From Echinarachnius parma (Eukaryota > Echinodermata > Echinoidea > Clypeasteroida > Echinarachniidae), in the NCBI GenBank assembly GCA_037951105.1, contig JBAMJV010003354.1:21001-85000 (forward strand): DNA of 64,000 bases. The letters run 5' to 3'. The notes under the pieces are model-generated. The model worked only from the letters and a program-made list of their open reading frames with translations. It made no database searches and was not told the origin of the DNA. Every line of letters starts with the position of its first letter. Within the stretch, counting starts at the first letter, position 1. Below, piece after piece: positions 42,200 to 62,456 of the stretch. A program made the position numbers and the translations under genes.

Positions 42200-42552
42200 A
42201 TAAGCAGTTGGGAACGGCATTTCTTCTTTACGAGCCCAAGAAAAAACATAGTTGGAAAAAGTATATGAATATGTCTTACTTCTACACCCAATGAAGAAAC
42301 AACGTAGTTGAGAACGCCATGTGAATGTGCCTTACTTCTTTACAGACTGTAGTAACTATGTTTGGAACGGTATATAAACAGGCCTTTCTTCTACGCAGAC
42401 TTAAGAAAAAAAACGTTGCTAGGAATGGCATGTGTGTGCCTTACTTCTTTACGGACTGTAGAAAAAATGTGTTTGGGGACGGCATGTGAATGTGCTTTCC
42501 TTTTTTACAGACCCAAGAAACAACATGGTTGAGAACGGCATGTGAACGCGCC
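42200..42552 (-). repeat. Tandem repeats in the plastin 3' UTR
   Basis: Six to seven diverged units of 55-65 bp share, on the plus strand, GAACGGCATGTGAATGTGCC followed by TTACTTCTTTAC. The last unit overlaps the stop codon (TAA of the gene is the complement of the TTA in CCTTACTTCT). Each unit therefore echoes the end of the coding sequence plus UTR. Confidence 0.75.
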
Positions 42553-42717
42553 TTACTTCTGCCTGCTGAGACCGAGACCAAGAGCCATGAGGCAGGCGAA
42601 GATGGTCATCACCATCTTGGGTTTGACCTCGACGATGTCCTCGGGAAGAGCGTAGACCATGGCGCCGTGCTTGCGAGCAATGGAGATGGTGTACTGGGCA
42701 TTACGCAGCTTTTCGTC
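42553..42717 (-). CDS. PLS: Plastin last coding exon (end of CH4)
   Basis: The acceptor ATCAACAG precedes 42717. It codes 54 residues ([20 protein letters not shown]...) and a stop. [20 protein letters not shown] is the hallmark plastin C-terminus. The tail LGLGLSRQK is longer than the vertebrate one by a few residues. Confidence 0.96.
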
Positions 42718-45700
42718 CTGTTGATGAAACAAGAGGAAAAAACAGGTATTAAAGGGTACTAGTAACACGTTCATGTAATACCTTATTAAATCAATCAACT
42801 TATCAAGCAATAAATGAATCAATCAATCAACCAATGGAGATGGTGTACAGTGCATTAGGCAGATTGTCCTCCTGTACATGGAACGAGAGGGAAAAACAGA
42901 TATCAAAGATTAAAAGGCGAAGATGGTCGTCACCATCTTTTCATCCTGACGATATCCTTGGGAAAAGCACCGTGTTCACGAGCTGCAATGGATATGGTGT
43001 ACTGAGCATTGCGCAGCTTTTCCTTCTGTTAATGAAACAAGAAGAACTAGATGGATCTTCGACTGCGCGCAGTCGAAAATGATGCCTCCGCCATTACGCG
43101 ATTTATATCAAGCCCAAATCAACATGTACACTGAATTAATTCTGTCAACTCAATTTTGATGGTACTCTGTCTTTTAGATCTTGACGTATCACAATTATGA
43201 GCTATAAGTGACCTTGACCTTAGACCTCATGACCCCCAAAATCTAATCAGTTCATTGGCTCTCCAAGGAACATACGGGCAATTCCATAAATTCGGACGTA
43301 CATTTCACACACTTCAATTAGGTACTAAAGGAGAAGTAAATGTAAATCATAAGATTTTATGTGATCAATAGATTGCTAATGATGAGTAGAAAATAATATT
43401 ATAACTTATTCAGATTTTACCACCATAATGACCTTGTACCGATCAAAAAACACTGCATGGTCGGACGTACTCAGAGAAAATGATTTTTCTGACATGAGGA
43501 TTTCAACTGGAAAACTCTGTGAAGTTGATCATTTTTTTGGGCCAAATCATCTATTACCATTTGGATAAGATTAGAAATGATGGGAAATATAAAAAAAAAA
43601 TTGATATTTTCCCTTCGAAGCATGGAATATTTACGTTTTATTTTCGTGTCGGACGTACAATGTCGGACGTACAAGACTGCCGTGTCGGACGTACATGTGT
43701 TATACAAATGCAAGTCTACTTGCTGCTGAAATATTTGCTGTAAATAGACTCTTTAAGTCATAATTAGTCACTAATGTTGTCTTAAATGGTAGATATGAAC
43801 ATGTTTTCACTGTACCATTAAATTATGGCAGTATAATACAAATAAAAACACAATTAATCTCACTAACATGAATATGCACTGTTGGGACTACATGAACTAT
43901 ATGTATAATGTAAATTTGAAGTATAGGGTTGATTTTTTAATCACAAAATGTATGTTTGTTGTTCTTTCCTACTAAGAAAATTATTAAATGGCCTAAGTGA
44001 GTCATAATTAAATAATAATTATACAACATGGTCCATCTGAAGCCCTCTGAAGTATGTTTTTATGATATATTTTTTAATGACAGCATGATAGTGTGTAGTA
44101 TTAGTATGTAAATACCCATACAAAAATGTGACTATGGAATGTCCAGCCATATTATGATGATTTGTTAGAATTAGGAATATGAATCACTAAGTAATTAAGA
44201 GATATTACATTTGAATACACTCTTTAATCATACAGATAGGATACAGTGTGAATTTAAGTGTTTTAGGCTGGCAAAAACCTACTCATTTCAATGCCGTGTC
44301 GGACGTACATGGTCGGACGTACTCAAAAAGTGTACGTCCGACCACCCATTTTTTCCTTAATTAGTGATGATTGGAATTTTTTTTTTTACTCTCTGTGTAG
44401 AGGGGTTAGAACTTGCTTTGCTTTGACATCCTGCCCTTTATTGGGTTCTTTGTCTTTTCGTGAAATTGAAAATAAGTGTTTTTCCGTGTCGGACGTACAT
44501 GACAAAAATAGTCCTGATATTAATTAGCTACAAATCGTAATTAAAAGAGTATTTTTCTAATTTTTTTGTGGTAATGGATTCAAAAAATTATAATGTGTAC
44601 ATCTATCATGGTCAATTAATTATTCAGTCTATTTTAATTGAAATACATACAAATATCAAATGGTATGTTACAACAAAGAAAAATCAGCAACTTCAGAATG
44701 CCTTGATTTGGAAGGGTCTCATGACCTTGACCTTGATCAATTTTTTTTTTAATGAATGGTTTTTGACACTTCACATTATTACCTTCAAATTGATGTATCA
44801 TTTGGACCAATATGATGATTTTGAAATTTTGGCCTACTGATTTCACACACTTCAATTAGGTACTAAAGGAGAAGTAAATGTAAATCATAAGATTTTATGT
44901 GATCAATAGATTGCTAATGATGAGTAGAAAATAATATTATAACTTATTCAGATTTTACCACCATAATGACCTTGTACCGATCAAAAAACACTGCATGGTC
45001 GGACGTACTCAGAGAAAATGATTTTTCTGACATGAGGATTTCAACTGGAAAACTCTGTGAAGTTGATCATTTTTTTGGGCCAAATCATCTATTACCATTT
45101 GGATAAGATTAGAAATGATGGGAAATATAAAAAAAAAATTGATATTTTCCCTTCGAAGCATGGAATATTTACGTTTTATTTTCGTGTCGGACGTACAATG
45201 TCGGACGTACAAGACTGCCGTGTCGGACGTACATGTGTTATACAAATGCAAGTCTACTTGCTGCTGAAATATTTGCTGTAAATAGACTCTTTAAGTCATA
45301 ATTAGTCACTAATGTTGTCTTAAATGGTAGATATGAACATGTTTTCACTGTACCATTAAATTATGGCAGTATAATACAAATAAAAACACAATTAATCTCA
45401 CTAACATGAATATGCACTGTTGGGACTACATGAACTATATGTATAATGTAAATTTGAAGTATAGGGTTGATTTTTTAATCACAAAATGTATGTTTGTTGT
45501 TCTTTCCTACTAAGAAAATTATTAAATGGCCTAAGTGAGTCATAATTAAATAATAATTATACAACATGGTCCATCTGAAGCCCTCTGAAGTATGTTTTTA
45601 TGATATATTTTTTAATGACAGCATGATAGTGTGTAGTATTAGTATGTAAATACCCATACAAAAATGTGACTATGGAATGTCCAGCCATATTATGATGATT

Positions 45701-48640
45701 TGTTAGAATTAGGAATATGAATCACTAAGTAATTAAGAGATATTACATTTGAATACACTCTTTAATCATACAGATAGGATACAGTGTGAATTTAAGTGTT
45801 TTAGGCTGGCAAAAACCTACTCATTTCAATGCCGTGTCGGACGTACATGGTCGGACGTACTCAAAAAGTGTACGTCCGACCACCCATTTTTTCCTTAATT
45901 AGTGATGATTGGAATTTTTTTTTTTACTCTCTGTGTAGAGGGGTTAGAACTTGCTTTGCTTTGACATCCTGCCCTTTATTGGGTTCTTTGTCTTTTCGTG
46001 AAATTGAAAATAAGTGTTTTTCCGTGTCGGACGTACATGACAAAAATAGTCCTGATATTAATTAGCTACAAATCGTAATTAAAAGAGTATTTTTCTAATT
46101 TTTTTGTGGTAATGGATTCAAAAAATTATAATGTGTACATCTATCATGGTCAATTAATTATTCAGTCTATTTTAATTGAAATACATACAAATATCAAATG
46201 GTATGTTACAACAAAGAAAAATCAGCAACTTCAGAATGCCTTGATTTGGAAGGGTCTCATGACCTTGACCTTGATCAATTTTTTTTTTAATGAATGGTTT
46301 TTGACACTTCACATTATTACCTTCAAATTGATGTATCATTTGGACCAATATGATGATTTTGAAATTTTGGCCTACTGGTTGACATATTTATGGAATTGCC
46401 CATACATGAACCAAGTTTGGTCAGAATCCGTCAATCCGTTCTTGAGATAACGAGCTATTTTTGCATATATAATGAGCTCTGTGACCTTTGACCACATGAC
46501 CCCAAAATCTAATCAGATCATCGGCCCCCCAAGATACATACATGTACCAAGTTTGGTCAGAATCCGTCAATCCGTTCTTGGGATAACGCGATCACGAGCT
46601 ATTTTTGCATATATAATGAGCTCTGTGACCTTTGACCTTATGACCCCAAAATCTAATCAGATCATCGGCCCCCCAAGATACATACATGTACCAAGCTTGG
46701 TCAGAATCCGTCAATCCGTTCTTGAGATAACGCGATCACAAGCTATTTTTGCATATATAATGAGCTCTGTAACCTTTGACCTTTGACCTCATGACCCCAA
46801 AATCTAATCAGATCATCGGCCCCTCAAGATACATACATGTACCAAGTTTGGTCAGAATCCGTCAATCCGTTGAGATAACGCGATCACGAGCTGTTTTTGC
46901 ATATATATTGAGCTCTGTGACCTTTGACCTTTGACCTCATGACCCCAAAATCTAATCAGATCGGCTCCCCAAGACACATACATGACCCAAGTTTGGTGAA
47001 AATCTGTTAATCGGTTCTTGAGATAACGCGATCACAAACTATTTTTGCATATATAATGAGCTCAGTGACCTTTGACCTCATGACCCCAAAATCTAATCAG
47101 ATCATCGGTCCCCCAAGATACATACATGTACCAAGTTTGGTCAGAATCCGTCAATCCGTTCTTGAGATAACGCGATCACGAGCTGTTTTTGCATATATAT
47201 TGAGCTCTGTGACCTTTGACCTTTGACCTCATGACCCCAAAATCTAATCAGATCATCGGCTCCCCAAGATACATACATGACCCAAGTTTGGTGAAAATCT
47301 GTTAATCGGTTCCTGAGATAACGCGATCACAAACTATTTTTGCATATATAATGAGCTCAGTGACCTTTGACCTTTGACCTCATGACCCCAAAATCTAATC
47401 AGATCATCGGTCCCCCAAGATACATACATGTACCACGTTTGGTTAGAATCCGTCAATCCGTTCTTGAGATAACGCGATCACGAGCTGTTTTTGCATATAT
47501 GAGCTCTGTGACCTTTGACCTTTGACCTCATGTCCCCAAAATCTAATCAGATCATCGGCCCCCCCAAGATACAAACATGACCCAAGTTTGGTGAAAATCC
47601 GTCAATCGGTTCTTGAGAGAACGGGACGTACGGACGTACGTATGTATGGACGGACGGACAACCCGAAAACATAATGCCTCCGGCTACTTCGTTGCGGAGG
47701 CATAAAAAACAGGTATTAACCCCTTGCCTACAGGAACCGGGTGGGTTATGTACAAAGTCTATAATCAATCAATCAATCAATCAATCAATCTATCATTTAC
47801 AATCAGTTAGTCATTCGCTCGCAGAAACAACAATCATTTATCAGAAATAATATCGCTAGTGATATTCGTTTGTATCGCAATGTATGGTCAAACTAGGAAT
47901 CTAAAAGATTTAGATTCCTAGTTTGACCATACATTGCGAGACAAACGAATATCACTAGCGATATTATTTCCGATACTATAATCGCAATGGATAATATATT
48001 TACTATTAACAATCATTTAGTTAAAGGGGTAGTTTAGTTTTGGTAGAGAGGGCACTGCACATCACAATTTTTTTGTGAGGTAATGAAAAACTGAGTGTCG
48101 AATTTGAGAGAACATGGTCAAAATCGACCCAGAAACGGCTGAAATATCAATAAATATATCTGATCTTATAATTATTTGGGGCCCAAATAATTAGATGATT
48201 TTTAGAAAAAAAAAAAAAAATGCTTGCACTTTTTTAAAAATTTTCAAAAGCGTTTTTTAAATAGTTGTTGATGATCTCGCTAGTTAATCATTATATCAAT
48301 AAAACATCACATGCATAATTTTGTATGCCAAATGGTTGAAACCAATGCCTTTTTAAAAAGTGCCCTCTTGTGTTTGAATGGCTCTTTTTGAATGATAACA
48401 GGCTTTTTACTTAGTCGTTTGTAATTTTGTATACATTTCGAGCATGGTGGAGTTATAACTATTAGTTTATAATGTTACTGTGCAGGTTTTGGCTACTAAA
48501 GTTCAGCCTTACCAAAACTAAACTACCCCTTTAATCATTTAGACCTACTTCATCTTGGCTGTCGACGTAGAGTTCGTAGTTGACGCATCTAGGCTTGATG
48601 GTGTCGAAGATGTCCATGACTATGCATAACTTGATCAATT

Positions 48641-48676
<36 letters not shown>

Positions 48677-51600
48677 TATCATTTATATTCCGTTAGTCAT
48701 TTGCTCGCAGAAACAACAATCATTTAGTGAATCATTTAGACTTACATACCCGAGCATGGTGGCTTATAGCGGTTAGAGTGTCTGCCTCATGCACGGGAGG
48801 TCCCGGGTTCGAACCCAGACCGGGTCATACCAAAGACTTTAACAATGGTACATTCTGCCTTCTAGCCAGGCGCTCAGCATTTATAGAATGGAGAAGGGAA
48901 AGTTAATCCCATGAGTAACCAGAGGACTGGCCCCCTTCTGTAGATTTCACTACATTTAGTTCACGTGTGGCCTAGGGCTTAGGAATCGGAGAAAGGCGCT
49001 GCCTTATGTGCCAACATTGGCACGGGAAGGACTTTATTAACTTTTAAATTTAGACTTACATCATCTTGGCTGTCGACGTAGAGGTCGTAGTTGACACATC
49101 CAGGCTTGATGGAGTCGATGAGGTCCAGGATGATGGGGGTGTTGGAGATAGCTTGGTCCTGGAAGCTCATTAGCCTTGAAGACTTGCCAGCTTCCTCCAA
49201 CTGTAATGATAATAATATCAATATTAATGATCAAAATATAATAATGATAATATAATTACATTATTAATAATAATAATGATTATATAATTATTTTAATAAT
49301 ATTAAAGATGATAATAATAATAATTATACTACTACTAATAATAAAACTAATACTACTCATAATAATAACAACTATAACAATGTTCACCGATAAGAACAAT
49401 AACACTAACATGAAAATGTCAATTAAAGTCGTGCAAAAGTAATTTGTTTGCCCTTTACATATACATGCATTTTATAAAATATAAGGGGAAATTGTTTAAA
49501 AGAATCAATTAACTTTACAACATTTAAAAAAGGGATATTTAATTGGAACTTCCCCCAATACTGGATGGGTTACCACATGGTGTACGTGTACATACCGTTT
49601 TGTTGACCCATTCAACCACTGCGGAGTCAGTGATCGGGTTGTCAGACCCACTCAGTTTCTGTAGGATGCCGAGTGTGTAGGCTCGCATCAGCTGCCAGAT
49701 CAGAGCTGGAACAAACAAAATTAATTCATTGAATAGAACTGATGTGCATTGAATGGAACTGAACAGATCTGCATTGACTTTAATTGAATTGAAATGAACA
49801 TAGGAGTAGGATTAGGAGTAGGAGTAGGGGTAGGAGTAGGAGTAGGGGTAGGAGTAGGAGTAGGAGTAGGGGTAGGAGTAGGGGTAGGAGTAGGGGTAGG
49901 AGTAGGAGTAGGAGTAGGGGGTAGGAGTAGGAGTAGGGGTAGGAGTAGGAGTAGGAGTAGGAGTAGGAGTAGGAGTAGGAGTAGGAGTAGGAGTAGGGGT
50001 AGGAGTAGGGGTAGGGGTAGGAGTAGGAGTAGGAGTAGGAGTAGGAGTAGGGGTAGGGGTAGGAGTAGGAGTAGGGGTAGGAATAGGAGTAGAAGTAGGG
50101 GGAGGAGTAGGGGTAGGAGTAGGGGTAGGAGTAGGGGTAGGAGTAGGGGTAGGGGTAGGGGTAGAAGTAGGGGTAGGAGTAGGAGTAGGGGTAGGAGTAG
50201 GAGTAGGGGTAGGAGTAGGAGTAGGAGTAGGGGGTAGGAGTAGGAGTAGGGGTAGGGGTAGGAGTAGGAGTAGGAGTAGGAGTAGGGGTAGGAGTAGGGG
50301 TAGGGGTAGGAGTAGGAGTAGGAGTAGGGGTAGGAGTAGGAGTAGGGGTAGGAATAGGAGTAGAAGTAGGGGTAGGAGTAGGGGTAGGAGTAGGGGTAGG
50401 AGTAGGGGTAGGAGTAGGAGTAGGAGTAGGGGTAGGAGTAGGGGTAGGAGTAGGAGTAGGAGTAGGGGTAGGAGTAGGGGTAGGAGTAGGAGTAGGGGTA
50501 GGAATAGGGGTAGGAGTAGGGGTAGGAGTAGGAGTAGGGGTAGGAGTCGGGGTAGGAGTAGGGGTAGGAGTAGGGGTAGGAGTAGGGGTAGGGGTAGGAG
50601 TAGGGGTAGGAGTAGGAGTAGGGGTAGGAGTAGGAGATGGGGTAGGAGTAGGAGTAGGAGTAGGAGTAGGAGTAGGAGTAGGAGTAGGGGTAGGGGTAGG
50701 AGTAGGAGTAGGGGTAGGAGTAGGGGTAGGAGTAGGGGTAGGGGTAGGGGTAGGGGTAGGAGTAGGGGTAGGAGTAGGAGTAGGGGTAGGAGTAGGAGTA
50801 GGGGTAGGAGTAGGAGTAGGAGTAGGGGTAGGAGTAGGGGTAGGAGTAGGAGTAGGAGTAGGGGGTAGGAGTAGGAGTAGGGGTAGGAGTAGGAGTAGGG
50901 GTAGGAGTAGGAGTAGGAGTAGGGGGTAGGAGTAGGAGTAGGGGTAGGAGTAGGGGTAGGAGTAGGAGTAGGAATACTCGGAGGAGTAGGGGTTGGAGCA
51001 GGAAGAGGAGGAGTAGGGGTAGTAGGTGAAGGACTAGGAGAAGGACTAGGACAGGGACTAGAAGGGGGAGGGGGAGGAGGAGTAGGAGTAAGAGTAGGAC
51101 TAGGAGTAGAGTAGAAGCAGGACTAGGAGTAGGATAAGGAGAAGAAGAAGAAGAAAAGAAGTGTGGGAAGAAAAGAAGTGTGAAAAGAAAAGAAACTTAC
51201 CTAGGGTCAGATTTTGTGTGCCGTTGTAGATGTCCTCTCCGCCGATTCCAACAAGGGAGAACTTCATCTGTTTTCCAAGATCGATGCAGTAGTTGCAGTT
51301 CTCAATCCTTTTCATGTTACCTCCCATCTTCTTCAACTTCTCTCCCTGGTTGACCTTGCTCCAGTTGACGGTGCCTGGTTTGACGATGTCGATCAACTGT
51401 TTGGACAATAAAATAAGAATAATTATTATCTTCTTTAGAAAAAAAACATCACATTTTGTCTGTGTATCTAATGCACATGTTTTATGTTGTTGGTACAGTA
51501 GTAGCAACTCTCAATCCTTTTCATGTTACCTCCCATCCTCTTCAACATTCCCCCTGGTTAACTTTGCTCCAGTTGACGGTGCCGGGTTTGACGATGTCGA

Positions 51601-54600
51601 TCAACTGTTAAAAAACGATTTTCATAAGTCTTTTAAAAAACTAAGGTAATTAAGGTTCTGTATCTAGTGCATTTATTTTCTGTTACTAATAGAAGAATTG
51701 CAATTCTGGATCCTTTTCATATTTCATTCATCTTCTTCAACTTCTCCCCCTGGGCTCACTTTGCTCCAGTTGACGGTGCCTGGTTTGACGATGTCGATCA
51801 ACTGTTTGGGAAAAAAAAAGAATAATCATAGTTTTCATAAAAACAGGTTTTATGGTTCCAAAGAATACAAATTTTCAGTCCTACTAATGCGCGAACAAAT
51901 GCGTACAAGTGCAAACAAGCGCAAACGAGATTTACTACGAACAAGTGCGAACTATTCTACTGTGAACAAGATTTACTGCAAACAAATTTGTTCACAGTAA
52001 ATCCTGCTCGCAGTAAATTAGTTTGCGCTTGTTCTCAGTAAATGTTGCTTGCCCCTAGTCGCGCTTGTTCGCGCTAATTAGTAGGGGGCCCTAATTTCAT
52101 CTATTTTCTGCAGTAGTCGTAATGTTTGTTCATCTCTTTGTTTCCTTCCACCCTCTTCCTCTTCTCCCCCTGGGCTCACTTTGCTCCAGCTGACACCTAG
52201 TGTGCCATGGCTGTGCATGCACGCACAATAGAGTACTTGACCATGTCCATTGTATTGTGCAGTGGCATATTGTATACATAAGTGGCTCTATTGTATGTAC
52301 ACCCCCTTACATTAGTGGCTCTTTTGTATGTATGCCCCCTTATCTGCAGGCTTGGGGTATTTGCTTTTCAATAGAATTCCATTCAAACCCCCCTTCCAAT
52401 TAATTTGGCAGGCTAAAGGATAAAGTCATTATGATACAGGATTCATTATAGTGCTATTCATTGAGATGTTCATTTCTCCCTCTGGGCTCACTTTGCTCCA
52501 GTTGACAGTGCTGGGTTTGATGATATCAATCAACTGTTTGGACAAGAAAGAATTATCATAATCGTTCTGAATGTTGACTGTGATCTACTGTAAAAATCAT
52601 AAATAATTTATAATCATTTTACTTCTTTAAAAAGTCATTATAATACAGGATAAGTGCTATTCATTGAGATGTTCATTGTGTTTTGTTTTGTTATCTAGGG
52701 GAAGGGGTCATTGTGAAAGCTTGAGGATTATAGTGGTTTAGCTAATCCATATGACAGTTTATCCTGGATTAAGAGAGAATTAACCTACCTGTAGAAGGAT
52801 AAGTTCATATCTAATTAGAGATGTGCACATGTACATTGAGATGTTCATTTATTTGTATGTGGGAGGAGGGGGGGGGGGGGGGGGGGGGTCATTGTGAAAG
52901 CTTGAGGACTAGAGGGGTTTAGGGATTAAGAGAGATTTAGCCTACCTGTAGAAGGACAAGTCCATCGCACATGTCAGAGTAGAGATGGTGCACATGAGGC
53001 GAGACGTTCAGACTGTTCATCCAGTTACGGAAGGCTGCAAAGAAAAAGATGAAATAAAAACAAAAATTAGCTGAAAAGCTCACTTAACCCGCTCACTACG
53101 AGATTGTGAAATCCCCATAGACTTTGTACATAGCCCACTTGGCTCCCGTAAGCAACGGGTTACATACAGCGAACATGAATGCATAGCAAATGAAGATAAA
53201 TCACAGCAATTACATAACATGTACTCAATTAAGACAGTTCATGGGCCAAAGTTGTTCTCAATTTCCTTTTTTAATATAACACATCATGAATAATGTGAGC
53301 ATTATCTGACTTACTTCTCTCTTCAACATCTTCATATTTTAACCCGTTCCCTTCAACTTTCTAAAATCCCCATAGACTTTGTACACAACCCAACCGGTTC
53401 CCGTAGTCAAGGGGTTAAAGGACAATGAAATCCAGACAAATTGTTGTATGCACTATAAGACACTAAATATAATGAATAGTCTCTGAAAATTTGAGCACAA
53501 TCGGTCAAGAAATAAGAAAACTATGGCTCTTTGAAAAGAGCCATGTATTTCTTTGAGTGACTCAAATTGGCAACGCACTCTAGCAAAGTTGTGGACAACT
53601 CCCCATACATTTTGTACACAAAATTTTAATTTTGTTAAATTTTCTCAAAATGTTTACCCTTTGTTCGAGTCAACATATGTTTTGTAGAATGCTTTTATAC
53701 ATAACATATCATGAGTTGGGGGAATGGAAAAATGTGACTATGAAGAAAACTGTAAAAATGAGAACATTTGTGTACAAAACATATGGGGAGTTGTCCACAC
53801 ACTTATCAGAGTGCGTTGCCAATTTGAGTTCCCCATAGGAATGAATGGACATCTTAAAAGAGCCGTAGTGTTCTTGTTTCTTACCCGATTATGCTCTAAC
53901 TTTCAGAGATTATTCTTCTTAATCTCAAGACAATGAAAGCAACATTTTGATTGGGTTTCATTGCCCTTTAAGTGTGAAGTATGCTCAAGTATGGATTTTA
54001 AAAACTTTTAAATAAAGGTTATAATGCTTTTCCTTCTTTTATATGTTCCTGTTTAATTGTCTTACAGAGGAAAACTCTCATGGCTAAACAATACAGAAAT
54101 AAATAAGCTCAAATTTACTCAAAATTTGAGGGGAAAATATGATTATTTAATTCCATTGTTACTTCTCTCTTCCCTAGGATCGTCAACGTCTTCGTACTCA
54201 ACATCAGCCATGGGTTCATCAGTGAAGTGTGTTTTGGTATGGTTTGATCAAGTTATGTTTTTCCTTCTTTTAAATGTCTGAGAACAATCAACTATTTAAA
54301 ATTAAATCAAAAGTTGAAGAAAAAATATGATTATTTAATTCAATCCTTACTTCTCTCTTCCCGGGTTTCTTCCACGTCTTCGTACTCGACATCTTCCATT
54401 GGCTCCAGTGCTGGGAAGTGGTTGAACAGATTAGCAACAAAGGCCATGTTCAACTTAGCATTACCCTTGACGATATCCTAGGGAAATCAACAACAAACAG
54501 GGATATCAGTATGTGGGACTGTAGCAACATTTTATGCCGTATTTACCGTTTATCAAAAGGTCACTAGGAGCACTTCACAAAAGATTTTTGTTTTGGTAAA

Positions 54601-57600
54601 GTGGTTGAAGTAATTTGCTACGAAGGCAATGTTCAGCTTAGCATTGCCCTTGGCGATATCCTAGGGGGGAAATCAACAACAAACGTGGATATCAGTATGT
54701 GGGACTGCAACCAAATTTGCTGTGTTATTTACCGCTCATGAGCACTTCACAACACACTCTTGTTTTATGGGACTGCATTAAAATGATTGGTTCTAATTTT
54801 TTTTTCACTGGGCCTCATACAAATTAAGGTCATTGTAGACAAAAAGAAGAGTAAAATCATGAAAAATTCTTGTTTTGAGAAGTGGTTGAACAGATTGGAA
54901 AATATCTTAGGGGGGCCGGAAACCAACGACAAACACGAATATCAGTATGTGGGACTGCACCTACATTTTATGTGTGGTTTTCTGTAAATCAAAAGGTCAC
55001 TAGGACCACTTCACAACATACTTTTTGTTTTGGTGGTTGAAGTAATTTAATTTCCAAAAAACGTCATGTTCAGTTTTGCATTGCCCTTGCAATATCGTGG
55101 GAAACGAATCAGCAACAAACATGGATATCAGTATATGGGACTGCATTAAAATTCTAGATGCTCCGTTTTTTCTTACTGGGCTTTTTACAAAGGTCATTGT
55201 AAAAACAGTACTTAACTAAGTCCAGAATTCTTGTTTGGGGAAGTGTTTGAACAGTTTAGCCCCAAAAGGCCATGTTTAGCTAAAGCATTACCCTGGGCAA
55301 TATCTTGGGGAACAAAATTACCAACATGGATATCAGTATATGGGACTACGGCAAGATTCTCTCTGTATAAGTGTACATTTAATCAAAATGATGATATGCA
55401 ATTCTAAGGTAATAAGCAGTCTCTGTAAGAGCGTAAATTGAAATAAATTGAAATTGAATAAAGTTCAATAAAATTTGAATATTTTGTCTGTTCAAAGTAC
55501 AGTGCTCATGTCAACATGAATGAACAGGTTCAAACTAATAAGTGACTGACATACACTTGTAGTACATGTATAAAAGCACCAAACATAAAGCTACATTACT
55601 GTATGTACATGCATGCATTGGACTGTCTGCAAGCTTGAAAGTCTTATGTCATGATATATGCAAGTAGTGGATGTATGAAAATGTTTCTTTAATTCTAAAT
55701 TCTAAATTGATTTAGTGTTTGTAAACATTTTCTGTAACGGCAAGTTTTATTCTATTTTTTTTTCTAAATGTATTACCTCAAGAAATAGGCCCTATGAATG
55801 AATCTAAAACTCCTGTAATGAAACAATACATGGTCACATATTGTGGGTAATATTCAATTTCTTTAGAGGAAAGCAAAATGTTATCTTTTTATGTAAATCA
55901 ATGAAGCCGAGAGCTATCGAATCTGGCAGATTCTTCTTCAGGAGTACAAATGACAGCTAACTGTACTCAACACAGAGTTATATACACACCGTCATTTTGT
56001 AAACCGTCATATGTACGCCTGAAGAAGAATCTGCCAGATTCGATAGCTCGCGGCTTCATTGATATACTGTATATTTTATTACACTTGCCTTTATAGTGGA
56101 CAAGCAGTTTTCAGCAGTTTTTTACATTTATTTATCTTTTTATGATAAACTTCTCACCTGTTTTGTTGTTATCATAATGGTTACTTAATTTGTCTAAATG
56201 CTGTTCCATGAATTTCATTTAACATGCAATTCATGATGGGCTGTGCTAAGCTCCTACTTTATGTACATGCTGAAAGTACATGTATGTTGATTCCTAGACT
56301 ATTACTAGGCAGCACGGGCGTAGCGAGTTACGTAATACCTATTCAACTGGGGGGGATGGATGAATAGATCATCCCCCCCAGTTGAATGGGTATCAATGAC
56401 ATGTCTACGCCCGTGCTAGGCAGTGCTATATCATGGTCTAGTATACAAATGATGCGCAGGTATGAGTGGGTCGGTAGGAATTGTTTGCACAAGGTAACTA
56501 TGGAACTGTTAAACCCACGAGGCGAAGCCGAGTGGGTTTAGACTAGTTTCCATAGTTACCGCGTGCAAACAATTCCACCGACCCACGAAATAAACTTGCG
56601 CATCATCTGTTTTATAGAATGGGCATTGTTACGCCCCCCAAAAAGTCAAAAAATCAAAAATTAGAAAAATTATCGGATGCATGAAATAATTTTACCGGAC
56701 GCATGAAATTTTTTACCGGACGCATGACATTTTTTACCGGACGCATGACATTTTTACCGGACGCATGAAATTTTTACCGGACGCGTGATTTTTTTACCGG
56801 ACGCATGACTTTTCATGCATCCAGTACAATTAATTGTCTGCACAAATTTTGCTCTCAACCAATCAGATTGCAGGGATTTATCAACCCATTCTATAAAAGA
56901 AAATTAACTTGATAAAGTCCCTTAAAATCTTGTATTCATTTGGATGCCATACAAATTCAATATGGGCTGCACTACTGATACCTTCTCTGCGATGCTTTTT
57001 TTTCTTTCTTTCAGAGGCCCAGTTTTGAAAGTAGAATAAAAACCTTATTTATTTGTTCCATTTATCTACATGTACTACACTGTAGATCAGAATGCATGGT
57101 ACCACTGGTATTTAACACTGGATGAATTATACTGAAGTATGTGTGGATGGTTGATACAGTGGATTTATTCTAAAGATTGGCATGTGATATAATGATTGAT
57201 ACATGTACATGCAGCTTCATCTCATCAACCTACAATATATCCAACAATACAGATCAGTGGTATACTGATGTAGGATCAATTGAAGGCATGACTTCACTAT
57301 GTTGGGTTTACAACTCATCTTTACAACTTTTCTAGATCAGTGGAGGTCACTAGATTCAATCTGATGAGCTGACTAATGATAGTGGTCTACTCTCAAGCCC
57401 TCCGCACACAGAGCCAACTCGACCCGATCTGACTGGTTTTTAGTCAACAATTCAACATCACCAACTGGCTCTTGACAGGCAAAACAGGAGTCCTGAGGCA
57501 ACGTATACTGAGCTCACTGAACCGACTGAAGACCAGTCGGATCGGGTCGAGCCGGCGCTGTGTGCGGAGGGCTTTATGGGACTTTTGATTGCAAGCATGA

Positions 57601-60600
57601 CAGCAATACGGATGTTGTCACATATCACTGGAAAGCGTAAATGGATGCCCGATGGATAGAAATTTAGCGAGATCAAATTATCGGATGGTGAAAGTTGTCT
57701 CCATTGCTGCATGTACGAGACTTCCATCAGATAGCTAACAGACAAGGAGAGCATTTGCTCCCTCCAAAAAAAGGGCAAGAAACGCGTACAAGCCGAGAGG
57801 AATGACTTGGGAATGTTGCTCTCTGTCAAGCGTTCGTTTTCAGCTACATGTATCTGGGGGGTGTTTCACAAAGATCCTAAGTTGAACTTAACTGTAAGTT
57901 GGACTTAAAAATTATGGAAAGCCATTAGTTTCTTTGAACACATTTTGTAAAAGTTCTTTTAAAAGGCATAAAATGTTGATTAAAATCATTAATATTTTCT
58001 ATTATCAAGGACATTTCATGCTCTTGATATAAATTTTATGAAACGTCTAAAATACTTGCATTTTGTTCTCCTGAATATATTTTATTCCAAGGCTACAAAT
58101 GGCTTACCATGATTTTTAAGTCCAACTTAGAGATAAGTTCAACTTAGGATCTTTGTGAAACACCCCCCTGGTGATATGTGAGAGGACTTACCACCTTTGT
58201 TTGGGTCGGTTTCTAACTCATCCAGCTTTTTAACTTGTTTTCAAAATCAGTGGATGTTACTCATTTTAATCTGAATATATCTTACATGTCGGTCTGCAAT
58301 GAAAGCAAATGAATTCTGATTATTGTGTAGACTTTTTACCCGACAATCACAATTTGAGCTTTTTGTTCAGAATTGGAGTGACACACGCTGGCTGTTCTGA
58401 AATTGGTAGAATGTTTCACATAGATCGGGAAATAGCTTCACTGTGCTTGGTTTGTAACTCATCCACCCATCTAACTTTTCTAAATCAGTGGATGGCTCTA
58501 GTTTTAATCTACAATGGAGACAAAATAATGTTTAGCTGCATTTTTTTTTACCTGACAATCACAATTTGAGGATTTTTCAGATTTAGAGTGATTACACTCT
58601 GGCTGGTCTGAAATAGTCTAATAGTTCAGGAGAAAAAAATGTGCAAGTAAAAACAGAAATGGCAGACAGTTGGCAGGCAAATTATTTATAGAATTCAAAC
58701 ACACTTGACATTGTTCAAAATGTTTTATCACATGCATTGTTTGAACCTATCAAGGACGATCTGATTTCACGGCAAAATATATCATTATTTCCCTCAACAA
58801 ATTGGCAACTCGTAATGTTGTCCTGCCTTCTAATGACGTAAAATTAGATGGAAAGTATTCAGTTATTATTATTTTGTATACAACTATGAAGTAATTTTGC
58901 TGCAAAATTGCCAATTTGAATGCCAAAATCTGTTTTTTAAATATGACAATGTGTTGCCAATTAAAGGATTTTCCTAGATTATAGCAATTTACACAAAATC
59001 AATAATGAAAGAAGGTACAGTAACAAAATGGGGCTAAAACAATATAGAAATTTATGCTCTTTCTCCTTGTATACTTCATATAACCCGTCATCCTCTTGCT
59101 CAAATGTAGGACTAACAAATCACACATATGTGGGGCATCGTCCTTGATGGTTTAAAGAGCATTCTATACTTTTTGGGTGGACTATGTCAAATTGCTTAAA
59201 TCTGTTTCACTATAGAATTGACTACACCTGCTTTCTTTTCAAATTCAAAATCACAATACAAAAATTAAGAGGACAAATGAGTAAAGCCCGGCGCAGACAG
59301 AGCCGACTCGACCCGATCTGACTGGTTTCAATCAGGCTAGAGGTGGGCCCGGTCGGTCTGATCTGTTTCATCGTGTTGAATTGGCCCCAAATAGCATCCG
59401 ACTGTCTTTCGACTGGCAAAATGTGTGTCGCAAGGCACTAAAAACTGAGCCGATCCGAATGAAAACCAGTCGAATCGGGTCGAGTCGGCTCTGTCTGCAG
59501 AGGGCTTAAGAGACATAAACAAATTATAGCAACATATAATTTTGTTGACTATTGCTATCCATCTACACATTTGTTTTTCATTTCATTCAACTATTATTCA
59601 TTTACATTGTTTTTTTGTTGTTTGCTTGCATTTTGCATTAGCAAAAAAAATGTACTACAAGTATAAAAGAAAAGCTTTGGCTTGCTATGGGCAGCATTTC
59701 ACACATGTACATTTTCCTCAAAGTGCAAAATGTAAAAACAAAGATGTAATTCAAAACTTGGCAAGGCAATTATATTTCAACCAAGTGGCATCTCTGCGGG
59801 CTGTTTTTAAACAACTATCAACTGTCTTGACTGACCACTGATGCTGAGGCTGCCATGTTTTCCAACGAGACATACTGGCCCGAATTCTCATCAGTGGCTC
59901 AACTTGTGCCTGGCCTAAAAAGACAAAGACTACCGGTAACACTTTGCACCAGCAGACGTACATGTATTGTCTTGTCGCTATGGTCCCCAGAGATATTCTC
60001 ATGGTTTCTTTTCATTCCTTTGAAATCCAGTCATAGTATAAGAGGTCACCAGCAATACAATGTCCAGGATGATCCAGGACGCAATTTGGCTGATGACAGA
60101 CTATAATATGACTACATTTGAAAGGGCCCATTGTCCTGATGTCTATAATCAGAACTCAAGGGATTGACTGGATAATGAAAGGAAACCATTAGAATATCTC
60201 CGGGGACCATAGTAATGAGACAATAAGTATGCTGCTGCAAAGTGTTCTTTGTCTTTTTAGGCCAGGCACAAGTTGAGCCACGGATGAGAATTTGGGCCAA
60301 TGAGCGCGCACTAACAAGAGCAGGCAAGAGCAGAACTGCTGATGTTGTATCTTCTGCTATGCCAGTGGTTACGCTTTTGTTAGCGCAAGGTAGGATGACG
60401 TTTCATATGGTACAGTTGGAAAACATGGCAGCCTCGAGTGTTCAGTCAAAAAAGATAATAGTGGTTTTAAAAACATTGATTATCTCCATTATTAGTGAAA
60501 CCCGTAGGAAATATACGACTTGCGAAATAAGTAACGGGAATTATGCACTTATCAGTAACAGTAAGCGGAAATGCCAGCGTTCGGGGCCCCTTTCAAGAGG

Positions 60601-62290
60601 TACTTGAAAAATGGTGTCTTCTGAGATTCTGTTTGTGATTGTTTTTGTTTGTTCGAACTCCATGTGAAAGCATATATTAAAATTGAATAAAAATAGTTGA
60701 CTATTGAGTAAGGTTCTGTCAGACATTAACAGGTGCATCTTGACTGAATCTAGACTGGTTAAAAAGATCCATTAACTTTGCAAGACTGATATTTGAGACT
60801 TCAGTAATACATACCAATATAATTCTAAGATTCTTCTGAATGATGTGTGACATTTTTCTATAAAAAGAACAATGTTGACCTTGGAAAAAAGATAAAAATT
60901 GATGTCATATTTTATCCTAATAATGTATATATATACAAAGTATCCAATTTCAATATTTTGCGTATGTACATACATTTTTGCGAATCAGGACTTTACAACG
61001 ATTTCGCGAGTGGTTAAATTCGCGTTCGGCTGTTGCCAACACGCATTCATGACTGTCTTGAGAGAGATGCTGGTGCAGTAATGCATGCAATACAAGTATG
61101 TGCATTGCTTTGCATTTGGTGACAATATATTAGCGTGTTGTTAATTCAGCGATTCACAAGTGATTCGCGAAATTCACGAAAGTAAAACCCTCGCAAAATA
61201 CGCTGGAAAGTATCCTTACCTTGGCTGTGACAAAGGCTCTACAGTCCATCTTCTCAGCATTATTCAGAACTTGATCCGCACGCATCTCAAGACTTTTCTG
61301 TAAAGGAAAGAAGAATAAATCAAATATGATCGTCTTACATTTAATGTAGCCCCCTTTTCTGTTAATCCATAACTAAAAGTAGGAATTGAATAGTTGCTTG
61401 TTTGCAAGGAAATCAGACATATAATAGGGATAACAAGTCACAAAAATAATGTGACCGGCTATATAGCAAAACCCGACATTTGTCGGTAAAAATCAAAATG
61501 TAGATTTGTATACCATTACATCACAAGCTTTCATTTGATGCTTTGTTATAACTAATTGGTCAATAATTGGCGAAGATATGATTGTTTCAATTTTACAATC
61601 ATAGGTCTTTTACACACATTGTGTGAACTTAACATGCCCATTTCTTCAAAACATGAATAACCGACAAGTGCCGGGTTTTGCTATTAGCCGGTCACAAATA
61701 ACTTCTCTGCCCACATCTCAAGATTTGATTTGGAATGTTACTTCTCTGGAAGATACTTGTTTTTTTATATTTCAATATCTCACAGCGCTTTATAAATACA
61801 TTATCATGTACCACCACCCAGAAAAAAAAAAAAAAATTGGAAAACGCATCACCGTTCTAAAGCGTACTGCGTTCATGGGTCTGCATGTACAAAGACTACT
61901 TTATCCAGAGCGAACAAATCGTCTGGGATTATATTGTCTCCAAACGTACGCGTGAATAGCATTGGCGCACTCGCAAATGTTTGGCCCGTACGGAACCAGG
62001 AAATAATAGTGGTTCCGTAAGTGGTGGTAATCTATTGCTCTGTTTATGAATTTACACAACCCATTGCAACATGTTGGGTATCTATTTAATATCGCAAAAC
62101 AGTACCAAAACATATAATTACATGTGTGTGTTGTTTTTTGCCTGGTGGTCCCCTTTAATATTATTACTCACATTAGCCAGGTCGACATGGCTGAGTGGGA
62201 TCTCCTTGGGGCAGATCTGTTTGAGCAGGACGGAGTACACCTCGGAATCCTTGATGTCGCCGGAGAAATCCTTGATGCGCCGCATGGATC
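42553..62290 (-). CDS. PLS: Plastin (fimbrin), last eight coding exons
   Basis: Exons 62172-62290, 61220-61297, 54351-54477, 52946-53034, 51201-51396, 49596-49705, 49060-49200 and 42553-42717 (stop at 42553-42555) join in phase with consensus splice sites to give 341 codons. They correspond to the C-terminal half of plastin (vertebrate plastins are about 630 residues): the end of calponin-homology domain 2 ([22 protein letters not shown]), CH3 ([49 protein letters not shown]) and CH4 ([61 protein letters not shown]). Plastin cross-links actin filaments in the cytoplasm. The EF-hands and CH1 are beyond the right edge. The frame is intact. The introns carry many decayed copies of exon edges. 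Confidence 0.96.
42832..43038 (-). pseudogene. Two decayed copies of the plastin last exon
   Basis: 42832-42885 keeps the acceptor-side 50 bp (GCATTAGGCAGATTGTCC). 42914-43038 keeps about 125 bp, with an acceptor ATTAACAG and the peptide [14 protein letters not shown], then deletions and an early stop that destroy the CH4 end. Both lie just upstream (minus sense) of the real exon. Confidence 0.85.
43058..43077. repeat. Perfect 20-bp palindrome at the left border of the Helentron-like element
   Basis: TTCGACTGCGCGCAGTCGAA is fully self-complementary and lies 4 bp before the terminal ATGCCTCCGC. Confidence 0.9.
43276..46400. mobile_element. Nested TIR element with TCGGACGTAC repeats and an internal duplication
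   Basis: The 16-bp inverted ends GGGCAATTCCATAAAT (43276-43291) and ATTTATGGAATTGCCC (46385-46400) are flanked by the direct 4-mer ATAC. Removing the element restores an uninterrupted minisatellite monomer. The decamer TCGGACGTAC follows the left end directly and recurs about eight times per internal unit, once inverted. No transposase frame is seen. A 4-bp duplication limits the candidate superfamilies, but I cannot assign one. Confidence 0.8.
43302..46377 (+). repeat. Perfect 1538-bp tandem duplication
   Basis: 43302-44839 and 44840-46377 appear identical in every line compared. The break is seen as a switch from GGCCTACTG/ATTTCACAC to GGCCTACTG/GTTGACAT. Any frames within it occur twice and are not genes. 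Confidence 0.93.
46401..47660 (+). repeat. Minisatellite of about 147 bp, eight to nine monomers
   Basis: Each monomer holds TGACCTTTGACCTCATGACC, CCAAAATCTAATCAGATCAT, CAAGTTTGGTCAGAATCCGT and TTGAGATAACGCGATCAC. Some monomers carry an extra 7-bp CTTTGAC repeat. Two subtypes alternate in the second half (GTACCAAG versus GACCCAAG), which suggests higher-order duplication. Confidence 0.93.
47840..47974. repeat. 64-bp near-perfect hairpin with a 7-nt loop
   Basis: Arm 47840-47903 pairs with 47911-47974, with two mismatches. It includes AATATCGCTAGTGATATTCG and CAATGTATGGTCAAACTAGG. It lies in the last plastin intron, next to an (AATC)n tract. Confidence 0.92.
48021..48534 (+). mobile_element. 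TTAAAGGGGTAGTTTAGTTT MITE, copy 2
   Basis: A 514-bp element with inverted ends of about 25 bp (TTAAAGGGGTAGTTTAGTTT, then TGGTA). It is collinear with the reverse copy at 29909-30446. It is inserted in the duplicated sequence next to the exon-7 ghost. Confidence 0.88.
48541..48612 (-). pseudogene. Decayed copy of the plastin exon at 49060-49200 (donor half)
   Basis: About 70 bp match the donor half of the real exon (peptide [13 protein letters not shown] against [13 protein letters not shown]). The donor has changed from GTAAGT to GTAGGT. The acceptor half is missing. Confidence 0.88.
48632..48680. repeat. (AATC)n microsatellite
   Basis: About eleven ATCA/AATC units. The same tract with the same flank (CTATCATTTAYA, GCTCGCAGAAACAACAATCA) occurs at 47762-47833, which marks a local segmental duplication. 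Confidence 0.85.
48749..49045 (+). mobile_element. tRNA-derived SINE
   Basis: The tRNA-like head GTGGCTTATAGCGGTTAGAG (A box) ... GGGTTCGAACCC (B box) with typical spacing is followed by a body of about 200 bp ending GGCGCTGCCTTATGTGCC. It stops within about 10 bp of the donor of the plastin exon at 49060. It disrupts a copy of the duplicated intron flank. Confidence 0.85.
49060..49200 (-). CDS. PLS: Plastin exon, first half of CH4
   Basis: 47 codons, phase 0 at both ends (acceptor TCATTACAG, donor GTAAGT). It contains [19 protein letters not shown] and [16 protein letters not shown]. Confidence 0.96.
49596..49705 (-). CDS. PLS: Plastin exon, CH3-CH4 junction
   Basis: 110 bp, entered after one base of an Ala codon. 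It codes [20 protein letters not shown], then [13 protein letters not shown]; donor ACG/GTATGT. The acceptor follows the hexamer-filled intron. Confidence 0.96.
49794..51140 (+). repeat. GGAGTA/GGGGTA hexamer satellite
   Basis: About 1.2 kb of AGTAGG units with frequent A-to-G variants (GGGGTA) and rare others, degrading at 50985-51150 into GGA-rich sequence. It fills nearly all of a 1495-bp plastin intron. Read on the minus strand it is a C/T-rich tract (TACTCC)n. The apparent Gly-Val / Arg-Ser frame is a repeat artefact. Confidence 0.97.
51201..51396 (-). CDS. PLS: Plastin exon, core of CH3
   Basis: 196 bp between acceptor CCAAACAG and donor CTAG/GTAAGT. It codes [20 protein letters not shown], then [15 protein letters not shown] and [20 protein letters not shown]. 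Confidence 0.96.
51503..51808 (-). pseudogene. Two decayed copies of the CH3 exon start
   Basis: 51503-51609 and 51700-51808 each repeat about 100 bp of the acceptor half (GTTGACGGTGCC, TTGACGATGTCGATCAACTG on the plus strand). Small deletions in the KVNQGEK region break the frame. Each is truncated near the ENCNYC codons. Confidence 0.9.
51881..52084. mobile_element. Foldback element with GCGCGAACAA motifs
   Basis: CTACTAATGCGCGAACAA and the inverse TTGTTCGCGCTAATTAGTAG form the ends. Inside are repeated GCGCAAAC / TTTACTGYGAACAA units in both orientations. Confidence 0.75.
52122..52197 (-). pseudogene. Third decayed copy of the CH3 exon start (shortest)
   Basis: Only the TCCCCCTGGGCTCACTTTGC and CTCCAG part is clear; the acceptor side is lost. 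Confidence 0.7.
52472..52546 (-). pseudogene. Fourth decayed copy of the CH3 exon start
   Basis: It retains the acceptor (GTCCAAACAG on the minus strand) and about 65 bp of exon ([15 protein letters not shown] by translation), then ends. Confidence 0.85.
52765..52832 (-). pseudogene. Decayed copy of the donor end of the plastin exon at 52946-53034
   Basis: The intron side (AATTAACCTACCTGTAGAAG against TTTAGCCTACCTGTAGAAGG) and about 40 bp of exon are shared. Confidence 0.8.
52868..52888 (+). repeat. Long G-run in a plastin intron
   Basis: A homopolymer of about 20 G, following GGGAGGAG. The nearby GTCATTGTGAAAGCTTGAGG occurs twice (52707 and 52888). Confidence 0.9.
52946..53034 (-). CDS. 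PLS: Plastin exon, start of CH3
   Basis: 89 bp, completing a Thr/Ser split codon. It codes [20 protein letters not shown], then [10 protein letters not shown]; acceptor TTTGCAG, donor CAG/GTAGGC. Confidence 0.96.
53107..53416. repeat. Pair of direct repeats with CCCCATAGACTTTGTACA
   Basis: 53107-53163 and 53364-53416 share CCCCATAGACTTTGTACA, and CCCGTAG...GGGTTA follows each. An inverted relative lies at 47715-47762. Confidence 0.6.
53415..53971. mobile_element. Foldback MITE with TTAAAGGACAATGAAAT ends
   Basis: The ends TTAAAGGACAATGAAATCCA and the inverse GGTTTCATTGCCCTTTAA are joined by long imperfect arms (both contain GAGTTGTCCA, GCAACGCACT and AAAGAGCC words in opposite orientation). 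Confidence 0.8.
54160..54232 (-). pseudogene. Copy of the donor half of the plastin exon at 54351-54477
   Basis: About 70 bp remain in frame ([18 protein letters not shown]) up to a GT donor (GTAACA). No acceptor is present, so it cannot be used as a normal internal exon. Confidence 0.85.
54351..54477 (-). CDS. PLS: Plastin exon, end of CH2 and linker
   Basis: 127 bp from acceptor TTTCCCTAG to donor GAGAA/GTAAGG. It codes [35 protein letters not shown] and EETREER. The linker to CH3 is acidic. Confidence 0.96.
54596..55370 (-). pseudogene. Array of four decayed copies of the acceptor half of the plastin exon at 54351-54477
   Basis: Copies of the exon's first 40-75 bp lie at 54596-54664 (still reads [20 protein letters not shown] with intact AG), 54876-54915, 55030-55098 and 55240-55306. 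Each is followed by the same intronic sequence (AACAACAAAC, GGATATCAGTATRTGGGACT). The unit is about 180-240 bp. None has a donor. Confidence 0.88.
55897..56063. mobile_element. Foldback element with GAAGAAGAATCTGCCAGATT arms
   Basis: Arms of about 48 bp (TCAATGAAGCCGAGAGCTAT... and the inverse) surround a 70-bp middle. A diverged fragment lies near 34575-34640. Confidence 0.85.
56312..56416. repeat. Small foldback element, copy 2
   Basis: GCACGGGCGTAG and its inverse form the ends. An inner pair contains AATACCTATTCAACTGGGGG and its inverse. It matches 26690-26766. Confidence 0.85.
56444..56612. mobile_element. Foldback element with GTGGGTCGG arms
   Basis: ACAAATGATGCGCA ... GTGGGTCGGTAGGAATTGTT pairs with AACAATTCCACCGACCCAC ... 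TGCGCATCATCTGT. A second inner pair (AAACCCACGAGG / GAGTGGGTTTA) forms the loop region. Confidence 0.75.
56613..56898. mobile_element. TIR element with seven ACCGGACGCATGA repeats
   Basis: TTATAGAATGGG and CCCATTCTATAA bracket a tandem array (56672-56815) of 19-25 bp units, TTTTTACCGGACGCATGA. Confidence 0.75.
57397..57572. mobile_element. GCCCGGCGCAGACAGAGCCG MITE, copy 3 (diverged)
   Basis: The ends GCCCTCCGCACACAGAGCCA and the inverse match the family at most positions. The internal ACCAGTCGGATCGGGTCGAG is conserved. Confidence 0.8.
57856..58168. mobile_element. GGTGTTTCACAAAG MITE, complete copy
   Basis: The inverted ends are about 55 bp (GGGGGTGTTTCACAAAGATC, CTAAGTTGAACTTA, ...). The interior of about 200 bp is AT-rich. 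Fragments lie at 2648-2676 and 23566-23696. Confidence 0.88.
59286..59505. mobile_element. GCCCGGCGCAGACAGAGCCG MITE, copy 2
   Basis: A 220-bp copy with 25-bp ends and an interior collinear with copy 1 in inverted orientation. One end has drifted (CTGCAGAGGGC). Confidence 0.88.
59878..60298. mobile_element. Large foldback element (arms about 110-180 bp)
   Basis: The left arm GGCCCGAATTCTCATCAGTG, ... GGCCTAAAAAGACAAAGAC pairs with the right arm ... TCTTTGTCTTTTTAGGCCAG, GAGAATTTGGGCC. Outside it, a second short pair (GCGCACTAACAAGAGC / GCTTTTGTTAGCGC, 60302-60388) begins. Confidence 0.8.
60945..61206. mobile_element. TIR element with TTTTGCGTATGT / AAAATACGC ends, abutting a splice donor
   Basis: ATATTTTGCGTATG and the inverse CGCAAAATACGCTGG enclose inverted TTCGCGA motifs. 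The right end is about 12 bp from the donor of the plastin exon at 61220. Confidence 0.55.
61220..61297 (-). CDS. PLS: Plastin exon, middle of CH2
   Basis: 78 bp, phase 0 at both ends (CTTTACAG to AAG/GTAAGG). It codes [20 protein letters not shown], then AFVTAK. Confidence 0.95.
61450..61696. mobile_element. TGTGACCGGCTATA MITE, copy 1
   Basis: A 247-bp element with inverted ends TGTGACCGGCTATATAGCAA, AACCC and ...TGTCGGTAA. It has no coding content. A second copy lies at 62457-62699. Confidence 0.88.
62172..62290 (-). CDS. PLS: Plastin exon, first part of CH2 in this window
   Basis: 119 bp, entered with two bases of a codon. It codes [39 protein letters not shown]; acceptor CCTTGTAG, donor [18 protein letters not shown] is a plastin signature. 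The preceding exon is not in the window. Confidence 0.95.
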
Positions 62291-62456
62291 CTACAAGGAA
62301 CAAGAGAGATTGTTATATCCACAACGCTGATCCACAAATAATTACATATTTACCATTTCAATTTTATAGATTCAATTCAATTCAAACAATTTGTATTAAT
62401 TTCAGTTTATAATAAAAACAAAAATACAAACTTAGATATAATAAACATTCACAATA

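Follow-up and report, generated by a model that had tools for sequence, protein, structure and literature searches.

Exons can be duplicated in part as well as in whole. Exonize sorts such events into partial, inter-boundary and intronic exon duplications, and its Results report that genes carrying these partial classes significantly outnumber genes with full-exon duplications (PMC12343006). Here we describe partial exon copies in a plastin/fimbrin gene of the echinoid Echinarachnius parma, which lies on the minus strand of a 64,000-nucleotide stretch of contig JBAMJV010003354.1 (C3353:21001-85000, within a 1.2-Gb assembly), hereafter the window. The plastin copies belong with partial or inter-boundary exon duplication, since each is part of an exon and crosses into the intron. 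Like the Exonize classes, they are local part-exon copies that cross the exon-intron border or are intronic, degenerate exons included; unlike them, as far as that paper's account of the classes goes, they show one-sided polarity and a preferred unit length, and they affect many exons of one gene (PMC12343006).

Three other systems are similar in part. Tandem and mutually exclusive exons also arise by tandem duplication within a gene and also appear as unannotated exon homologues in introns, but such exons are whole, with a splice site at each end and a frame that can be read (PMC9013439); here no full-exon copy was found among the 44+12 exons (kinesin/TCP-1 and plastin), and some copies are frameshifted. 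Intron gain by tandem genomic duplication likewise involves a short tandem unit with exon sequence and splice signals, but in that process the unit is confined to an exon and duplicated AGGT gives rise to the new intron (PMC3443670, PMC2891723), whereas here an existing border is straddled and no intron is made. Decoy exons in retained introns resemble the plastin copies in being unproductive splice sites inside introns; the decoys pair a 5' with a 3' splice site and have been reported to influence intron retention (PMC12017769), whereas the copies have single sites. Among the papers listed in a literature search, with most subscription journals outside its scope, none describes a genome-wide density of this order with one-sided polarity and a preferred unit of ~190 bp.

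Tandem geometry of the plastin copies

Eight exons of the plastin gene fall within the window (A-H, 42553-62290) and at least four more lie beyond it. Spliced together, A-H form a single open frame of 340 codons, whose product aligns to residues 287-627 of plastin-3 in the PDB (E=1.7e-122) with no gap of the size of a missing exon. Its highest identity among the best 120 of 1454 matches is 68%, to a Strongylocentrotus purpuratus fimbrin-like protein. The real exons are thus intact, as an earlier, sequence-only reading of the window had held.

Truncated local copies are present at 8 of the 12 plastin exons, five of them in the window (C, D, E, G and H) and three outside it (W, X and Z). The best local-search match for each of the window exons has an E-value between 3e-44 (exon E) and 5e-15 (exon D), far beyond chance. 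With a cut-off of 50 bits we obtained 20 matches across these 8 exons, none of them inverted and none a copy of a whole exon; two weaker copies, E copy 3 and C copy 2, fall outside this set. The five window exons are those named in the sequence-only reading, whose coordinates proved correct to within a few bases (Table 1). Its claim that a sixth exon end is echoed in the array of the 3' untranslated region (UTR) fell away, because the 56-bp repeat of the UTR includes only 8 bases of coding sequence, and we do not count it. Its claim that each copy keeps a splice site applies to 9 of the 13 window copies, which retain AG or GT; of the four copies from the acceptor side of exon C, three no longer have the AG, and E copy 3 has decayed too far to be scored.

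The arrangement of the copies is one-sided. In 20 of 20 plastin matches, acceptor-side copies lie upstream of the exon and donor-side copies downstream, all in direct orientation; randomly scattered fragments would be on the right side about half of the time. Exactly this polarity would result from a tandem duplication that broke once within the exon and once within the intron, if one full exon is to remain. The alignments show that the copies contain intron beside the exon part, and not just the border, and that they abut as tandem units. Where the exon piece of E copy 1 ends, the intron of the next unit begins at once, and by eye the junction of E copy 2 is about the same; the C copies, also by eye, share a near-identical junction that joins about the same exon point to the same intron point; and H copy 2 starts at the end of the intron part of H copy 1. 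Tandem Repeats Finder (TRF), unprompted, calls the exon-E array tandem (51293-51830, period 196, 2.6 copies). The repeated local duplication seen in the sequence-only reading therefore holds, in the form of tandem units with shared junctions. Moreover, E copies 2-4 have a +1 insertion in common, which indicates that a decayed copy was itself duplicated again.

We consider it very likely that the partial copies are the spare halves of head-to-tail tandem duplications, mostly of 150-220 bp, with breakpoints in an exon and its flanking intron. A unit spanning an exon-intron border would leave the exon complete in one place and, in the other, only a truncated end together with its splice site. The intact exon would preserve the function of the gene, and the spare half would decay chiefly as intron DNA. 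Once in tandem, a unit can be duplicated again, giving arrays like those at exons E, C and X.

The smallest shift for each plastin exon side is 154, 181, 183, 188, 195, 201, 209 or 219 bp, with two larger values, 505 and 513 (the donor side of W, and G). The figure for G contains an insertion of ~300 bp resembling a short interspersed nuclear element (SINE). The G copy had seemed isolated because the pair of units was later interrupted by this element, by a palindrome and by a dispersed element; it is one unit split by insertions. The SINE-like element (window 48744-49044) is bounded by an identical 14-bp stretch, ATTTAGACTTACAT, and sits at the donor of exon G, so that its target-site duplication duplicates the donor. 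It contains GGGTTCGAACCC, which we take to be B-box-like; ARAGORN finds no tRNA within it.

Of 9 pairs of real exon and copy, 8 show less divergence over the exon than over the intron, with mean Kimura two-parameter distances of 0.21 and 0.43, respectively. This is as expected if one partner of the exon part is constrained, and it explains why exon ends catch the eye. Geometry also accounts for a claim that stood, that copies almost never keep both ends of an exon: 77-93% of random 100-250-bp units touching exons C-H span one border. Strong selection against whole-exon copies, which we considered, is not needed to produce this pattern.

Table 1. Exons of the plastin gene, their partial copies and associated repeats, in window coordinates except for the last row.
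Feature	Position	Strand	Description	Basis
56-bp tandem array	42223..42560		3' UTR, reaching 8 bp into the coding sequence across the stop codon; not scored as a border copy	TRF
Exon H	42553..42717	-	last coding exon, stop codon at low end	exon model and plastin-3 alignment
H copy 1	42832..42913	-	40 bp of exon 5' side, acceptor (ACAG) and intron; upstream, shift 154	
H copy 2	42914..43046	-	~124 bp of exon 5' side, acceptor and ~20 bp of intron; frameshifted	
G unit, intron part, second copy	47763..47840		palindrome and dispersed element now between this and the exon copy	
G copy	48530..48619	-	~71 bp of exon 3' side, donor (GTAGGT) and intron; downstream	
G unit, intron part, first copy	48649..48726		95% identical to 47763-47840	
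Exon G	49060..49200	-		exon model
Exon F	49596..49705	-	no copies found	exon model and local copy search
Exon E	51201..51396	-		exon model
E copy 1 unit	51496..51693	-	110 bp of exon 5' side, acceptor and intron; 1-nt frameshift; shift 209	
E copy 2 unit	51694..51850	-	junction about as in E copy 1; +1 insertion	
E copy 3	52118..52215	-	degraded; has +1 insertion of E copy 2	
E copy 4	52474..52568	-	56-64 bp of exon and acceptor; has +1 insertion of E copy 2	
D copy	52698..52835	-	exon 3' side, donor (GTAGGT) and intron; downstream, shift 181	
Exon D	52946..53034	-		exon model
C donor-side copy	54018..54224	-	~60 bp of exon 3' side, donor (GTAACA) and intron; downstream, shift 188; aligned codons open	
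Exon C	54351..54477	-		exon model
C acceptor-side copy 1	54597..54875	-	62 bp of exon, intact AG and intron; upstream, shift 183; aligned codons open	
C acceptor-side copy 2	54876..55034	-	without AG; exon part mostly deleted	
C acceptor-side copy 3	55035..55237	-	without AG	
C acceptor-side copy 4	55238..55385	-	without AG; 1-nt insertion	
Exon B	61220..61297	-	no copies found	exon model and copy search
Exon A	62172..62290	-	no copies found	exon model and copy search
Exons Z, Y, X, W	C3353:96369-96576, 97122-97224, 101385-101538, from 104369		same contig past the window	

Other genes, dispersal and the assembly

The sequence-only reading treated these duplications as a peculiarity spread across one gene. 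For kinesin and for TCP-1/Cpn60 we took the 30 best exon matches, with 1.5 kb on each side, and looked for partial copies; counting them from six-frame hidden Markov model (HMM) tables proved too insensitive. After one truncated locus (L058) had been set aside and related loci merged by comparing their exons on both strands, 44 distinct exons were left, a sample that covers two families, takes the best HMM matches first and includes several exons per gene. Partial direct copies accompany 23 of the 44 exons in at least one member of the group, and 19 of the 44 in every member, so the pattern is not confined to plastin. Representatives of the groups yield 34 matches on 27 exon sides; the polarity, a test independent of orientation, is right in 34/34, and none is inverted or full-length. 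For shifts of 0.75 match lengths or more, at which the outcome is unforced, polarity is right in 32/32 (in the pool before related loci were grouped).

Of the 9804 exonic bases in the kinesin and TCP-1 sample, 18% are matched within 1.5 kb by a copy at 80% identity or better. In a published survey, the share of exonic bases for which the same gene contains a homologue at 80% identity or better is ~2% in human, 0.08% in fly and 0.06% in worm (PMC9013439); the comparison is rough, given that the methods differ and our sample is small.

Dispersal is not supported as the source of the copies as far as the genome search goes. Matches to the borders of exon E (4/4) and exon H (3/3) in the 1.2-Gb assembly all lie at the plastin locus, for which no second contig was found, although these counts are lower bounds; the alternative raised in the sequence-only reading, that the same copies are scattered genome-wide as ordinary dispersed repeats, thus found no support. 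A mobile element or dispersed repeat that captured exon ends and then inserted near exons would use either side and either strand, and in the plastin and kinesin/TCP-1 matches combined the side or orientation is wrong in 0/54. Although SINE-like elements and elements resembling miniature inverted-repeat transposable elements (MITEs) are present at the locus, we regard this explanation as scarcely credible.

Related loci can differ in the presence of a duplication. A 158-bp kinesin unit is single in one locus (L035) and double in its relative (L032), at ~90% identity. Four of the 14 groups of related loci have a partial exon copy in one member that is absent from another (L010/L011, L031/L033, L032/L035 and L040/L041/L042, which are 84-96% identical and may be alleles or paralogues). 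Two haplotigs, L072 and L073 (contigs C5986 and C5710), have the same partial kinesin exon copy, alike at 70/72 bases; within each, the exon and its copy agree at 63 or 64 of 72 bases. One of the two haplotigs has an additional tandem copy of ~400 bp, and duplications like these probably segregate in the sequenced animal.

The same comparisons bear on whether the assembly itself created the copies, by setting unmerged haplotypes or contig overlaps in tandem. Several loci are paired at 94-99% identity, some in opposite orientation, showing that both haplotypes were kept in places. The presence of such haplotig pairs and the four groups in which only one member has the copy would fit an artefact, as would a 1541-bp tandem duplication in the window (43302-46380), 99.94% identical, which is either very recent or an assembly error; by eye, its outer flanks have a 16-bp inverted repeat. 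In contrast, most of the partial copies are only 70-93% identical to their source, several are frameshifted, the arrays reach up to five copies, lengths are spread over 150-220 bp, and the same partial copy occurs in both L072 and L073. An assembly artefact is therefore very improbable as the source of the copies.

Other features of the window include inverted-repeat, MITE-like elements at 7119-7611, 53415-53971, 57856-58168 and 61449-62703, and a (TAGGAG)n-type array of 1.3 kb at 49801-51134, ~66 bp from exon E. On the minus strand there is an open reading frame (ORF) with a C-type lectin domain at 28614-29093 (PF00059, E=4.5e-14) and a 592-aa ORF at 2-1777 with zero Pfam matches at 0.001. 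Rfam and ARAGORN scans of the window gave zero matches.

Exon surplus and selection on the copies

Several observations weigh against interpreting the copies as decaying spare halves alone. Direct copies within 700 bp occur at 22 of 44 exons but at only 19 of 88 intronic pseudo-exons (p=0.001); inverted copies within the same distance occur at 4/88 pseudo-exons. At the plastin locus, by our own count, 6 of 11 tandem events between 42.2 and 55.4 kb straddle an exon border versus 8-13% expected, an excess that was defined post hoc and has P from 7e-5 to 3e-3 depending on unit length. The exon part of copy 1 in the C array is slightly more diverged than its intron part. Finally, the ratio of nonsynonymous to synonymous change (dN/dS) pooled over 37 matches at other genes is 0.274, lower than the 95% ranges of three neutral-copy simulations (0.376-0.565, 0.335-0.503 and 0.362-0.510). 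On the strength of this low ratio, some copies may have been coding for some time.

The exon surplus is in part a matter of what can be seen. In simulations, copies at exons are 1.22-1.27-fold easier to detect, an advantage too small for detection bias to be the full cause of border-centered copies, and we dropped that explanation. The pseudo-exon control leaves out copies of a real exon and so has somewhat less reach, which means that the surplus is overstated to some extent. As for the regional background, local direct repeats cover 60-64% of non-exonic positions between 42.2 and 55.4 kb, mostly in three big arrays, and once the arrays and copies are taken out the cover is 6.5% (2.7% at 70 bits), which leaves the local enrichment unsettled. 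At 3-42 kb of the window the cover is 4.5-6% of positions. These data show that the duplication process affects introns too, with an exon surplus beyond detectability. The claim that duplication is centered on borders holds insofar as exons are hit more often; the units themselves run from exon into intron, and they occur within introns as well.

The selection estimates are similarly mixed. For the 13 plastin copies compared with their exons, dN/dS is 0.31. Neutral copies simulated beside constrained exons have a median of 0.37-0.59, and the plastin value falls inside the neutral 95% range in 9 of 18 settings (9/12 at kappa 2-3, 0/6 at kappa 1). The pooled value for other genes, from a set in which L065 was left out and a few related loci remain, lies at or just over the upper end of the ranges expected with constraint of half strength (0.174-0.298, 0.172-0.266 and 0.166-0.269). 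Three partial copies of one kinesin exon (L030; contig C59, 1501-1683), with shifts of 210, 510 and 867, have 17 synonymous and 4 nonsynonymous differences when pooled; judged by these codon differences, they are the clearest candidates for copies that code now or coded in the past, and may have fallen silent only recently.

These findings raise the alternative that half-exons are retained for a function, as splicing decoys or as poison or alternative exons that tune plastin expression. The low pooled dN/dS and the more frequent copying of exons than of introns would fit with this idea, as would the AG or GT kept in 9 of 13 window copies and the open aligned codons of C acceptor-side copy 1 and of the C and G donor-side copies. 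Decoy exons that cause intron retention are described in human genes, but the published decoy exon has both a 5' and a 3' splice site, and the plastin copies have one (PMC12017769). Frameshifts interrupt the E copies and H copy 2, the G copy, which is 88% identical to exon G, has 7 nonsynonymous differences to 1 synonymous, and three C copies lack the AG. Similar units also lie away from known exons. We judge retention for such a function to be improbable, and we favor spare halves of tandem duplications as the origin of the copies. Half-exons may be tolerated because exon definition would ignore an unpaired splice site: if the spliceosome pairs sites across exons, a lone acceptor or donor is expected to be passed over.

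Preferred unit length and what may set it

We surveyed local direct duplications in 265 kb of the genome and reduced the 90 clusters obtained to families according to the sequence of the unit. The stricter of two such collapses left 73 families, of which 19 have units of 180-199 bp and 39 have units of 150-219 bp, and the 20-bp bins flanking 160-219 contain 5 and 2 families. The first collapse gave 20/78 and 40/78 families at 180-199 and 150-219 bp, respectively, with a median of 188 within 140-240. In this 78-family count, the probability that at least 20 of the 56 units of 100-299 bp fall in one of ten equal bins is ~2e-6. Simulated detection is 0.79-0.92 for units of 150-600 bp, 0.69-0.76 for 90-130 bp and 0.46 for 70 bp; the search therefore did not create the length peak. 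The process thus has a preferred length of ~190 bp.

A nucleosome repeat consists of a 147 bp core and about 40 bp of linker. We read the copies not as a plastin oddity but as the outcome of a process that acts across the genome and duplicates stretches about as long as one nucleosome repeat, with the connection to nucleosomes inferred. That the preferred length is one nucleosome repeat is a tentative assignment, which we would hold somewhat less readily than its opposite. Two routes could lead from chromatin to a duplication of this size. In one, nicks on opposite strands in neighboring linkers would be followed by fill-in and joining. Tandem duplications reportedly arise after adjacent single-strand breaks, made as designed nicks in plants (Schiml et al. 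2016), a candidate mechanism in which nick spacing would determine duplication length; in the present case, chromatin would have to provide that spacing. In the other route, Okazaki fragments of nucleosome length would be mis-processed; in yeast, Okazaki fragment length tracks nucleosomes. Among the matches listed in our literature searches there was no paper on nucleosome-length tandem duplication, and the matches listed for nick-induced duplications were genome-editing reviews and unrelated work.

The same tandem duplications could also have a ~190-bp preference that owes nothing to chromatin, set by the distance over which a polymerase switches templates or by selection on what is tolerated near exons. 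Units of 150-219 bp make up a greater share of those touching exons (19/25) than of the others (21/53, in the 78-family count), as selection near exons would predict. However, the peak is also seen away from known exons, so that exon tolerance alone is not sufficient. We regard a non-chromatin origin of the length as quite possible, if a little short of an even prospect.

The step that sets the length of short tandem duplications, which form a large class of DNA gain, is to our knowledge unclear. A genome with a ~190-bp preference and many copies of different ages beside constrained exons would make that step testable. It is conceivable, though we lean toward doubt, that germline DNA gain in this lineage comes mainly one nucleosome repeat at a time, with chromatin setting the ~190-bp length of tandem duplications in exons and introns alike, a half-exon fossil at about half of exons, and introns growing thereby. 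If this is true, the fossils register both the mutation process and the tolerance of splicing. If the rate holds genome-wide, they would amount to a natural experiment on exon definition, with single splice sites placed ~190 bp from real ones; and gene finders and surveys of exon duplication in such genomes can take these fossils for exons.

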